A stretch of 64,000 nucleotides of DNA from Parapedobacter tibetensis (GTDB lineage: Bacteria; Bacteroidota; Bacteroidia; Sphingobacteriales; Sphingobacteriaceae), in contig NZ_JAMXBE010000002.1 of NCBI RefSeq assembly GCF_024704835.1, positions 1-64,000 on the forward strand, written 5' to 3'. Made by a program: the position numbers and the translations under genes. Under the pieces are notes generated by a model, which searched no databases, was not told where the DNA came from, and worked only from the letters and a program-made list of their open reading frames with translations. Within the stretch, counting starts at the first letter, position 1, and each line of letters starts with the position of its first letter. Shown here piece by piece: positions 40,717-63,612 of the stretch.

Positions 40717-40747
40717 GTTGGCTTTTTGTTGCTATATTCCTCTACAA

Positions 40748-40843
40748 CTAAGTTTTCAATGGCAGCCGAGAAATCGATCAATTCTCCTTTATATGTAAAG
40801 CAATTATATTGCGTATAAAGGAGAATTTATCTAAGTTCGCAGC
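40748..40843 (+). repeat. Two-hairpin repeat element, copy 1, upstream of DUF6702 gene
   Basis: Hairpin 1: TTTTC (40753-40757) and GAGAA (40768-40772) around a 10-base loop with GGCAG. Hairpin 2: ATTCTCCTTTATA (40781-40793) pairing perfectly with its complement at 40814-40826. Conserved ends are CGAT before and TTATCTAAGTTCGCAG after the second stem; TAAGTTCG is a near-consensus -7 box. Related copies are at 54489-54592 and 63545-63612. Confidence 0.85.
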
Positions 40844-40910: not shown

Positions 40911-41426
40911 ATGTATGGAAACCTTATGCTGAGTATAATTACCAATGTCTTCTTGCTGATTTTCCATCCCTTTTACGTAAGTATCGCTGCGGTGGATTAC
41001 AACGAAAAAGCACAAAGCGTGGAAGTGAGCTGCAGGATTTTCTATGATGACTTAGAGGATGCCCTTAAAGCTGGGGGAGGTAAACGGGTGGATCTGATTA
41101 ACCCGACAGCGGCGGATAAGCGTGCGATGGATAGCTTACTTGCCGGTTATCTCCTTAAACACTTTAGGTTAGCGGTCAATGGTGAACAGGTGAACCTGCG
41201 ATACCTGGGCTATGAAATTGAAGATGACGTAGCTTGGTGTTACCTGGAAGCGAATAACATTAGGCACATCGCGAACATCACCATCGATAATCGCATCCTT
41301 TTCGGGCAATTTCCCAAACAGAGCAATATCATGCACATTACGGCTAACGGGAAGCGCAAGAGCGCGAAGCTGGATAATCCGAAAAGTAGAGCTGTTTTTG
41401 AGTTTGCGGATTCGCTTGTTCGCTGA
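40911..41426 (+). CDS. DUF6702-family periplasmic protein
   Basis: A 171-residue protein with an N-terminal signal or anchor (LMLSIITNVFLLIFHPFYVSIAAVDYNEKAQSVEVSCRIFYDDLEDAL). The HPFYVS...EVxCRIFxDDLE...L pattern, then LVAGYLxxHFxLxVNG-like LLAGYLLKHFRLAVNGEQVNLRYLGYEIEDDVAWCYLEA, is the DUF6702 family, which accompanies HupE-like and M1 peptidase genes in Bacteroidota. Its function is unknown; export to the periplasm is inferred. It follows a two-hairpin element with a promoter-like end, 67 bases upstream. Confidence 0.82.
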   Translation: MYGNLMLSIITNVFLLIFHPFYVSIAAVDYNEKAQSVEVSCRIFYDDLEDALKAGGGKRVDLINPTAADKRAMDSLLAGYLLKHFRLAVNGEQVNLRYLGYEIEDDVAWCYLEANNIRHIANITIDNRILFGQFPKQSNIMHITANGKRKSAKLDNPKSRAVFEFADSLVR

Positions 41427-51608: not shown

Positions 51609-54467
51609 TTACGAAATCATCCCCACTCCCCGCATTTCCATTTTAAGGAAACGTGCCGTTTGGTTGTTCTTGCAATTAATAAGATCCTCTGGCGTGCCAC
51701 TGAAAAGGATTTGCCCGCCTCCGGCACCTCCTTCTGGGCCGAGGTCGACCACCCAATCTGCTACTTTAATGACATCGAGGTTATGCTCGATGATCAACAC
51801 GGTATTCCCTCGATCTACCAAACGGTTGAGTACGCCGAGCAACACATTCACATCTTCGAAATGGAGACCTGTAGTGGGCTCATCAAGGATATAGAAGGTC
51901 TTGCCTGTGTCTTTCTTGGAAAGCTCCGTCGCTAGTTTTACGCGTTGCGCTTCCCCACCAGAGAGGGTTACAGAAGACTGACCCAGGGTGAGGTAACCTA
52001 ACCCCACATCCTGCAGGGTCTTGATTTTGCGGTAGATGGATGGGATATTCTCAAAGAAGGCTACGGCGTCATCAATACTCATATCCAGGACATCACTGAT
52101 GGACTTTCCACGGTAACGTACCTCCAATGTTTCTCGGTTATAGCGCTTGCCGTTGCAGGTCTCACAGGGTACCTGCACATCTGGCAGAAAGTTCATTTCA
52201 ATGACCTTCATGCCCCCACCTTGGCAGGTCTCGCAGCGTCCCCCCTTTACATTGAAGGAAAATCGTCCGGGCTTATAACCCCTAATCTTGGATTCGGGCA
52301 ACTGTACGAACAAGGCACGGATGTCCGAAAACACACCCGTATAGGTGGATGGGTTGGATCGTGGCGTACGGCCAATGGGGCTTTGGTCAATCTCGATGAC
52401 TTTATCTATATGCTCCAGCCCTTCTATTTTCTTATAGGGCAACGGTGTTTTCTTAGCCCGGAAGAAATGATGATTCAGGATCGGGTATAGGGTCTCTGTG
52501 ATGAGGCTCGACTTGCCACTGCCCGATACACCGGTTACCAGGATGAGTTTGCCCAAGGGAAGTTCAGTGGTAACGTTGCTGAGGTTATTGCCTGATGCTC
52601 CCGAAAGACGTAGGGTATGGCCATTTCCGGCCCTGCGTTTCTCCGGGAGATGGATCTCTTTCGCGCCATTAAGGTATGCGGCCGTAAGCGTGTTGGACGC
52701 CTTCAGTTGTTCGGGTCTGCCTTGTGCGACCACGAGCCCGCCATGGGCACCGGCTGCTGGTCCCATGTCTATCACATAGTCGGCATTGAGGATCATATCC
52801 TTATCGTGCTCTACCACGAGTATGGAATTGCCAATGTCGCGGAGGTTTTTAAGGGCCTTGATGAGCCGCTCATTATCGCGCTGGTGCAGCCCGATGCTGG
52901 GTTCATCAAGGATATACAACACGTTGACAAGTTGCGAGCCGATTTGGGTGGCCAAGCGGATACGCTGTGCCTCTCCTCCCGAAAGCGTTCTGGCTGTGCG
53001 ATCAAGTGTCAGGTAATTGAGCCCCACATCCAGCAGGAAACCCAGCCGCGCTCGTATTTCTTTCAGGATTTCAATGGCAATGATGCGCTGTCTTTCATTA
53101 AGACGCTGTTCGACGTCATCAAACCATGCCGCAAGCGAAGAGATGTCCATCGCGGCCAATTCATGGATGTTTTTATCGGCTATCTTGAAATGGAGGGATT
53201 CTTTTTTGAGCCGGGCGCCTTGACAAGTCGGGCAAATCCTTTTGGCGCGATATTCATCGAGGCTTTGTCCATTTACTCCCTGGCGCTCGTTTTGGTCTTC
53301 GAGCATTTTGAAAAGGCCTTCGAACGTTATCTTGTAGTCCTTGGTATTCCAGCTGCTGTAGGTGACAGGTACCGTTACGGTATCTTCTACTCCGTTAAGG
53401 AGGGCATTGAGTTGTTCCGTGGTGAGTTTTTCAATGGGAGTGGACAACGAAAAATCGAGTTTCTTGGCTACGGCCTTCAGCACTTGGAAGTTCCAAGTCT
53501 CGCGGTATTCGCCCAATGGCGCCAGCCCTCCTTTCATGATGCTGAGCTTGGCGTCGGGAATGACAACGTTGCGGTCTATTTCGTAGACATAACCCAGCCC
53601 GTCACACTGTTCGCAAGCGCCATATGGCGAGTTGAAGGAAAATGTGTTGGGCTGAGGTTCATCATAGGAAATGCCCGATTCCGCATCCATCAGGTAGCGG
53701 CTATAGAAATATTCGTTGTTGGCCTTGTCGCTAACCTTGATAATACCTTTTGCGGCTTTCATGGCTTGCATGACCGAGGTGAATAGCCGCTTGCGGTCAT
53801 TTTCGGACACAAGGAGCCGGTCTATAACCATCTCGATATCGTGGATCTTATAGCGGTCGACCTGCATCTTGGGTACAATATCCAATAATTCGCCATCCAC
53901 CCGCACTTTTACATAACCTTGTTTACGGATTTGCTCAAACAGCTCACGGTAATGACCTTTGCGGCCCTTAACCACGGGAGCCAGCACATTGATGGCTTGT
54001 CCATCAAATTGCTTGATGATGCGGTCTACCACTTGGTCTTCCGACATGCGTTCCATCCTTTTGCCGGTTACATAGGAATACGCTTCACCGGCCCGGGCAA
54101 AGAGCAGGCGCATGAAATCGTACACTTCGGTGATGGTACCCACGGTAGACCGTGGGTTTTTGCTGGTAGTTTTCTGCTCGATGGAAATGACGGGACTGAG
54201 CCCCGAGATCTTATCGACATCCGGGCGTTCCATGCCACCCAGAAACTGGCGGCTGTAGGCACTGAATGTTTCCATGTATCGGCGCTGACCTTCGGCATAG
54301 ATGGTGTCAAATGCCAATGATGATTTTCCACTGCCGCTCAATCCCGTGATGACGACCAGCTCATTGCGGGGGAAACTTACATCAATGTTTTTGAGGTTGT
54401 GTACACGCGCGCCGAATACTTCTACTTCGCTTTGCTCGCCCAGATCGGGCGTGGATTGTTTAGTCAT
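51609..54467 (-). CDS. uvrA: Excinuclease ABC subunit A
   Basis: A 952-residue protein of normal length with two ABC ATPase cassettes. Walker A1 is [14 protein letters not shown] (residues 42-55) and Walker A2 [14 protein letters not shown]. Zinc-finger cysteines are in [18 protein letters not shown], and [10 protein letters not shown] with CETCNGKRY; both LSGGEAQR signatures and the Walker B stretches ([28 protein letters not shown]) are intact. UvrA detects DNA lesions with UvrB in nucleotide excision repair. A two-hairpin repeat element with a TAAGTTTG -7 box lies directly upstream. Confidence 0.98.
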
Positions 54468-54488: not shown

Positions 54489-54592
54489 GCAAACTTAGAT
54501 AAATTCGCTTTCATATGCAATTTAATCGCGTTGCATATAAAAGCGAATTTATCGATCTCTCCTCTGCCGTTGGGAGACAACTTTTATAGAGG
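54489..54592 (-). repeat. Two-hairpin repeat element, copy 2, upstream of uvrA
   Basis: Reading on the minus strand: hairpin 1 TCTCC/GGAGA around a 10-base loop with GGCAG (plus-strand arms 54558-54562 and 54573-54577), then hairpin 2 with 23-base arms at 54498-54520 and 54531-54553 matching at 22 positions, then TTATCTAAGTTTGCA. The final TAAGTTTG (54490-54497) is a perfect -7 box 22 bases from the uvrA ATG. Confidence 0.88.
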
Positions 54593-54617
54593 AAATATAC
54601 GGAAATAGTATGGATAG

Positions 54618-63510: not shown

Positions 63511-63544
63511 TTTGACGAATAAAAACTATTTTTCATCTATAAAT

Positions 63545-63612
63545 GTAAGTTCTCAGTGGCAGATGAGAGAACGATAACTTGCATATAAGAGGCAAGTTAT
63601 CTAAGTTTGCAG
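63545..63612 (+). repeat. Two-hairpin repeat element, copy 3, upstream of 5'-nucleotidase gene
   Basis: Hairpin 1: TCTC (63551-63554) and GAGA (63565-63568) around a 10-base loop with GGCAG. Hairpin 2: GATAACTTGC (63573-63582) pairs perfectly with GCAAGTTATC (63592-63601). TAAGTTTGCAG follows, and TAAGTTTG is a perfect -7 box. The ATG of the next gene begins three bases after the element ends. Confidence 0.88.

Follow-up and report, generated by a model that had tools for sequence, protein, structure and literature searches.

Hairpin-forming sequences upstream of genes in Parapedobacter tibetensis are, with a probability of roughly four in five, copies of a small mobile DNA element, non-autonomous and hairpin-ended, which carries a promoter and targets promoters in their melting region. 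Three copies lie within the window, by which is meant the whole 64,000-nucleotide stretch of DNA that was analysed. The evidence is computational and comprises family structure, covariation, insertion junctions, promoter spacing, insertion polymorphism and tandem arrays. A mobile palindromic promoter cassette had been one of the possibilities raised when the sequence was read alone, and it is now strongly supported by precise filled and empty orthologous sites together with the spacing of the -33 and -7 boxes. The element family noticed at that time is confirmed as real, and it had been understated.

The three copies in the window were all recovered, with their borders refined to those given in Table 1, and Pfam matches bore out their location upstream of genes for a DUF6702 protein, UvrA and a 5'-nucleotidase (NT5C). 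As single-stranded DNA or RNA each copy folds better than 197–200 of 200 dinucleotide shuffles (z -3.3 to -7.6). In copy 1 the final T of the terminal TAAGTTT is replaced by C.

Table 1. Parts of the three element copies in the window and the genes downstream of them (CM, covariance model).
Feature	Position	Strand	Evidence
Copy 1, old -7 box remnant TATATT, abutting the element's 5' side	40733..40738	+	sequence
Copy 1, complete element, CCTCT...TCTAAGTTC	40739..40838	+	CM match 40732-40839, E 1.8e-11
Copy 1, hairpin 1, outer arms TTCCTCT / AGCCGAGA, stem damaged	40737..40771	+	sequence, DNA fold
Copy 1, hairpin 2, GATCAATTCTCCTTTATA... / ...TATAAAGGAGAATTTATC	40776..40831	+	folds, z -4.3, -4.5
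Copy 1, putative rebuilt promoter, TTG (-33) 40809-40811, TAAGTTCG (-7) 40832-40839, spacer 20 nt	40809..40839	+	sequence, spacing statistics
Copy 1, downstream gene, DUF6702 protein	40911..41426	+	PF20420, E 2.9e-45
Copy 2, old -7 box remnant TATATTT	54593..54599	-	sequence
Copy 2, complete element, CCTCTATAAAAG...ATCTAAGTTT	54491..54592	-	CM match, E 3.5e-18, the genome's best
Copy 2, hairpin 1, TTTCCTCT (54595-54588) / AGAGGAGA (54565-54558)	54558..54595	-	folds, RNA z -7.6, DNA z -6.5
Copy 2, hairpin 2, 23-bp arms 54553-54531 / 54520-54498	54498..54553	-	folds
Copy 2, putative rebuilt promoter, TTG 54520-54518, TAAGTTTG 54497-54490	54490..54520	-	sequence, spacing
Copy 2, downstream gene, uvrA	51609..54467	-	PF17760, PF17755
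Copy 3, old -7 box remnant TATTTTT	63527..63533	+	sequence
Copy 3, short-form element, CATCTATAAATG...ATCTAAGTTT	63534..63608	+	CM match 63527-63609, E 7.4e-13
Copy 3, hairpin 1, TTTCATCT / AGATGAGA	63531..63568	+	RNA fold
Copy 3, hairpin 2, GATAACTTGC / GCAAGTTATC	63573..63601	+	folds
Copy 3, putative rebuilt promoter, TTG 63579-63581, TAAGTTTG 63602-63609	63579..63609	+	sequence
Copy 3, downstream gene, NT5C-like (5'-nucleotidase)	ATG 63615	+	PF06941, E 2.5e-40

Elements are 75–110 bases long and share one layout. Read 5' to 3', they run from CNNCTATAAA, the unit starting as C(NN)CTATAAA, through a first hairpin with GGCNGNNGAGAGA as its right arm and a CG to a second hairpin and the terminal CTAAGTTT. 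The covarying stem of hairpin 1 is the outer pairing TTTCNNCT/AGNNGAGA, which encloses a loop of about 20 nt; the short first hairpin with a GGCAG-containing loop of about ten bases, described in the sequence-only reading, is present as an inner pairing in some copies. Hairpin 2 spans from the G of CGAT to the C preceding TAAG, and CGATAA/TTATC thus belongs to the stem and covaries, rather than flanking it as a conserved block as had been supposed. The covariants at the base of hairpin 2 are GATAA/TTATC, GCTAA/TTAGC, GACAA/TTGTC, GAAAAG/CTTTTC and GGTAT/ATACC. Six copies (L002, L034, L058, L089, L194 and L199) hold an additional structured module between the hairpins, AACTGCGAAGCATTCATGAGTACC...GAATAA, with a mini-hairpin of its own (TGC-GAA-GCA or CGC-GTA-GCG) that apparently covaries.

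The family extends far beyond the window. A search of the genome of origin for TTATCTAAGTTTGCA, allowing up to two mismatches, gave 82 occurrences where the reversed control gave 9; for the hairpin-1 motif GGCAGNNGAGA..CGAT the figures were 15 and none. A covariance model built from 28 copies found about 32 full-length matches there at E≤0.001, so that the search for further copies, proposed at the outset as a check, returned many more. Matches were present in all nine Parapedobacter genomes searched, with 3 to 42 per genome at E≤0.01. Elsewhere in the Sphingobacteriaceae, 17 of the 142 genomes sampled from other genera matched as well; they belong to five genera, and the matches reach down to E 5e-16. 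In a class-wide sample of 295 genomes, searched under stricter filters at which weak matches are lost, only the window's own genome matched. Among named genomes, the exact pattern turned up nowhere but in Parapedobacter, Sphingobacterium, Olivibacter, Pedobacter and one Sphingobacteriales MAG. The carriers are Sphingobacteriaceae, which are soil and water bacteria, and the genes downstream of the element have unrelated, mixed housekeeping functions. Two other-genus matches of the first pattern search (L087 and L097) appeared to be coding sequence and were rejected as family copies. One copy in the own genome (L002, C1:680523-680650) contains a 110-bp direct duplication on either side of a single N, probably a scaffolding artefact. 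No description of the element was found in a literature search limited to open-licence PMC papers.

Orthologous sites with and without the element were identified at mutS, pyk, frr, kdtA, serS and an aspartate-aminotransferase-like gene. The element sits inside the Bacteroidetes -7 box, in one orientation, as TAnnTTT^G (or A), where ^ marks the insertion point, and at mutS, pyk, kdtA, the aminotransferase gene and serS it has entered 3' of the fixed target TAnnTTT. The flanks of filled and empty sites are identical for up to 26 of 26 bases on each side at pyk (G003/G005), the aminotransferase gene (G000/G003), serS (G006/G003) and mutS (G006/G004). For example, the empty pyk site reads GCGCCATATTT^GTCAAAG and the filled one GCGCCATATTT, CGCT...CTAAGTTT, GTCAAAG, while the aminotransferase site reads GCTTAATATT^GCAGCAAAA when empty and GCTTAATATT, CATC...CTAAGTTT, GCAGCAAAA when filled. 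The serS site is ATTATTTTT^GCCGACAC and the mutS site AATCCTATTTTT^ACGGCC; filled mutS copies retain the target TTTA, giving TAAGTTTA, and empty ones keep a canonical TTG-N20-TATTTTTA promoter. Both the aminotransferase and serS pairs allow a unique best split, after ATT/TTT. A duplication of a TTT target, compatible with most sites, is ruled out at the aminotransferase gene, where ATT on the left and TTT on the right mark a target without duplication. The kdtA and frr sites agree by eye and the uvrA site, which in element-free G005 reads TCCGTATTTTTGC, is consistent, the frr and uvrA pairs leaving the junction not uniquely fixed. Since the element splits the -7 box at orthologous sites, the TAnn found immediately 5' of TTTC in 42 of 68 elements represents a second, older -7 box.

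The distribution of filled sites bears on the direction of change. At frr, serS, pyk, kdtA, fumC and the aminotransferase gene the full element is present in only one of the genomes compared, and several insertions are confined to one of the nine species. Even sister genomes differ, G003 from G005 at pyk and G006 from G007 at serS, these pairs being taken from a tree in which several forks are weakly supported. Presence in a single species against several empty relatives, sister pairs included, makes insertion simpler than precise excision by parsimony over the nine species, while filled and empty pairs alone fit either. Other sites (mutS, argS, an MBL-fold gene and the M20 peptidase gene) are common to three or four species, so that part of the distribution reflects vertical inheritance.

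What the element splits, it appears to rebuild at its own 3' end. Of 68 elements, 48 have a TTG at a distance of exactly 23 nt upstream of TAAG and 10 more have it at 21–22 nt, so that TTG-N18-20-TAAGTTT occurs in 58 of 68; most gene starts come 11 to 104 nt further on. The Bacteroidetes sigma-A promoter has TAnnTTTG at -7 and TTTG at -33 (PMC7366714). The 3' end therefore brings a new -33 TTG and a new -7 TAAGTTT at the standard 20-nt spacing, by which the promoter would be rebuilt in place, and to judge from its sequence this promoter looks to be a working one. The family is accordingly a dispersed sequence with a predicted promoter in front of unrelated genes, as expected of a mobile promoter, and by rebuilding the promoter at its own end the element can spread without obviously switching genes off. 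Tandem units, joined with TAAGTTT directly followed by C, also occur. Upstream of an M20-type peptidase gene, G008 has an array of 11.4 units of 74 bp with 97% match (L183:1893-2736), while at the orthologous gene a single unit is present in G007 and about two in each of G004 and G006; L004, L046 and L112 hold further tandem units.

A divergent gene lies upstream of 41 of 66 classifiable elements, its start codon sometimes only 2–15 nt from the element. In L089, L190, L193, L206 and L213 this distance, measured to the left end, is 2 to 12 nt, and neighbours so close may also draw on the element or the old promoter region. No -7 box was seen on the opposite strand when a bidirectional promoter function was considered. 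As to TTATCTAAGTTTG sites in general, many promoters without hairpin 1 carry a short dyad, NTTG-N10/11-CAAN, around the -33 box in which N covaries. The own genome also harbours a second dispersed family with the same TTATCTAAGTTTG promoter end and another body, a GGCGGA hairpin followed by AGCTTGAACACAAAAGAAAACTAACNCTTGTGAAAAAAAGCAAG (for example L016, L028, L041 and L044, about 1500), and two elements (L005 and L023) include its left half in inverted form. A third family, GTTCGTGAATACNNNGCATTTTATCTAAGTTTG, has the right end alone in common and was seen in the own genome (L022, L050, L060 and L077) and at the pnp loci of G003 and G005 (L315 and L316).

The claim that the stems covary was borne out. 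Across both stems of 55 elements the covariation score was 0.386, compared with 0.105 for shuffled sequences and at most 0.065 for slid registers; 92.7% of cells pair, and 12 of 16 pairs have changed on both sides. The set consisted of 57-column sequences cut to the arms, in which hairpin-1 left arms were placed by pairing and copies with unplaceable arms were left out. In a control in which the arm was placed by sequence alone, the NN/NN arms were fully complementary in 50 of 85 copies against 13.6 ± 3.1 expected, and pairs 6–10 of hairpin 2, set by pairing-independent anchors, gave 224 against 154 ± 7. Mispairs on the gene strand, compared (G.U versus A.C) as a guide to the strand on which pairing matters, differ between the stems: outside the first pair hairpin 1 has 19 G.T and 5 A.C, and hairpin 2 has the opposite bias, 31 A.C and 8 G.T, both counts being confounded by one constrained arm.

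Such matching could also arise without selection on structure, if template-switching during replication corrected imperfect palindromes while the elements spread by another route. We consider this unlikely, although the MBL-fold gene does show what resembles block rewriting: the element occupies the identical spot in four species with a wholly different hairpin-2 sequence, whole arms being replaced and the length ranging from 30 to about 100 nt. The mispairs of hairpin 2 likewise point to constraint on its right arm, which bears the promoter. However, the mutS orthologues exchange hairpin 1 pair by pair via a G.T intermediate (CCTCGG/CCGAGG, CCTCGG/CCGGGG, CCCCGG/CCGGGG), which is typical of stepwise selection, and very short stems are kept as well.

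The observations can be combined in a mechanism for a mobile, promoter-carrying element. It would enter directly 3' of the TTT in the sigma-A -7 box TAnnTTT^G, in a single orientation and without target duplication. TAAGTTT of the element together with the host G (or A) would then complete a new -33/-7 promoter no nearer to the gene and no farther from it than before, and the old -7 box would persist upstream as TAnnTTTC. The moving form may be single-stranded DNA, its terminal hairpins being recognised for their structure; this would account for arms that keep pairing while their sequence varies freely. The target may be taken while melted, as the -7 box lies inside the open-complex bubble; in Flavobacterium this sigma-A box occupies -12 to -5 (PMC9723704). 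A purine run, GAGA, may act as a guide by pairing with the TTT of the target, a pairing that is available in the computed fold.

Much of this resembles a MITE of REPIN or IS200/IS605 type, whose single-stranded DNA would be moved by a Y1 (HuH) transposase, for instance a RAYT, supplied in trans or since lost. Hairpins lie near both ends, the target is not duplicated, tandem arrays occur, insertion is 3' of a short target with a look-alike TAAGTTT ending the element, compensatory stem changes are known from REPINs (PMC3116915), and pairing of GAGA with TTT could play the role of the guide in IS200/605 elements (PMC6006769). Yet the GTAG/CGTC tag is absent and hairpin 1 begins at the very end rather than subterminally. 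The enzyme is mostly missing too: none of the eight other Parapedobacter genomes has a Y1_Tnp (PF01797), two of the 13 carriers searched in other genera have one (11 had none), and the single match in the window's genome (L349:900-1430) is a decayed IS200-like pseudogene with stops and frame breaks. Reverse transcriptase (PF00078) is absent from five of nine Parapedobacter genomes and was, like Y1/RAYT, rejected as the mobiliser. The element would thus work like IS200/IS605 or REPIN single-strand transposition, but membership is not supported, and we regard this origin as quite improbable.

Strong covariation, the G.T excess in hairpin 1 and the position before genes might also be expected of a structured RNA leader or riboswitch-like cis-element selected for RNA structure, a possibility raised by the sequence-only reading that now seems very improbable. 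With the Flavobacterium spacing, insertion would be between -6 and -5, which puts the old +1 at element base 6, a purine in 84%. Counted from that old start, the left arm of hairpin 1 occupies -8 to -1 and would not be part of the old promoter's RNA, and relative to the new start both hairpins are upstream. This geometry speaks for hairpins that act at the DNA level, though transcription may also begin further upstream. Downstream genes without a common function and precise presence or absence between species also speak against an RNA leader, the mispair bias of hairpin 2 runs the other way from that of hairpin 1, and a riboswitch was rejected because of the varied genes, the geometry of the start site and the empty sites. 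Rfam had no match in the window at gathering scores, a permissive scan giving only weak, chance-like matches, and Pedo-repair (RF01715) had none up to E 5 in four loci. Another very improbable reading is an immobile operator, also among the original suggestions, or a cruciform site for a transcription factor in ordinary promoters, since, for all its constant place inside a promoter with TTG and -7 box at fixed spacing and its retention at some orthologous promoters, the arm sequences vary more freely than a base-reading regulator would allow, exact insertions interrupt otherwise intact orthologous promoters, tandem arrays occur, and the genes are unrelated housekeeping ones.

More tentatively, and with the odds somewhat against it, the element may belong to a new class of mobile DNA whose machinery is neither Y1 nor reverse transcriptase, targeting the melted -7 box of active promoters (the transcription bubble), recognised by hairpin shape and not by sequence, and near-neutral to its host as its own end restores the promoter that it splits. 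Insertion at one phosphodiester within the sigma-A -7 box, combined with promoter rebuilding, would be an unusual way to spread where genes are densely packed, and would give Bacteroidota a natural source of tandem promoters and of turnover in promoters. It would also connect the targeting of mobile DNA with open promoter complexes in a way that can be tested, and the lack of the usual single-strand transposases raises the question of which enzyme moves the element. As a caution, covarying stems upstream of genes need not signify regulatory RNA.

Among known systems, REPINs and REP elements with their RAYT (TnpA-REP; PMC3116915) are likewise short, hairpin-forming, extragenic and dispersed, with tandem clusters and compensatory stem changes. 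REPINs consist of two REP cores in inverted arrangement and bear a GTAG/CGTC tag, whereas this element has neither, the tag being absent from its conserved columns; it differs further in its fixed orientation, its fixed -7-box site, its predicted promoter and the absence of RAYT from nearly all searched genomes that carry it. With IS200/IS605 and their MITEs it shares hairpin ends, the lack of target duplication and insertion 3' of a short target resembling the right end, but most carriers lack Y1, hairpin 1 is flush with the left end and a promoter box serves as the target. Classical bacterial MITEs are similarly small, non-autonomous, multicopy and intergenic; unlike them, the element has no terminal inverted repeats (its ends are CNNCTATAAA and CTAAGTTT) and no target-site duplication. 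The cyanobacterial small dispersed repeats, reportedly described by Elhai et al. in 2008 as very small, structured and nesting in hairpin loops, are comparable in these features, and are not known to have a promoter function or a -7-box target. Putative mobile promoters, for which PMC8049555 cites Matus-Garcia et al. (2012) and van Passel et al. (2014), are also dispersed homologous promoter sequences in bacterial genomes. They are reportedly defined through similarity of upstream sequences, whereas the present family has its borders, target site, structure and empty sites resolved.
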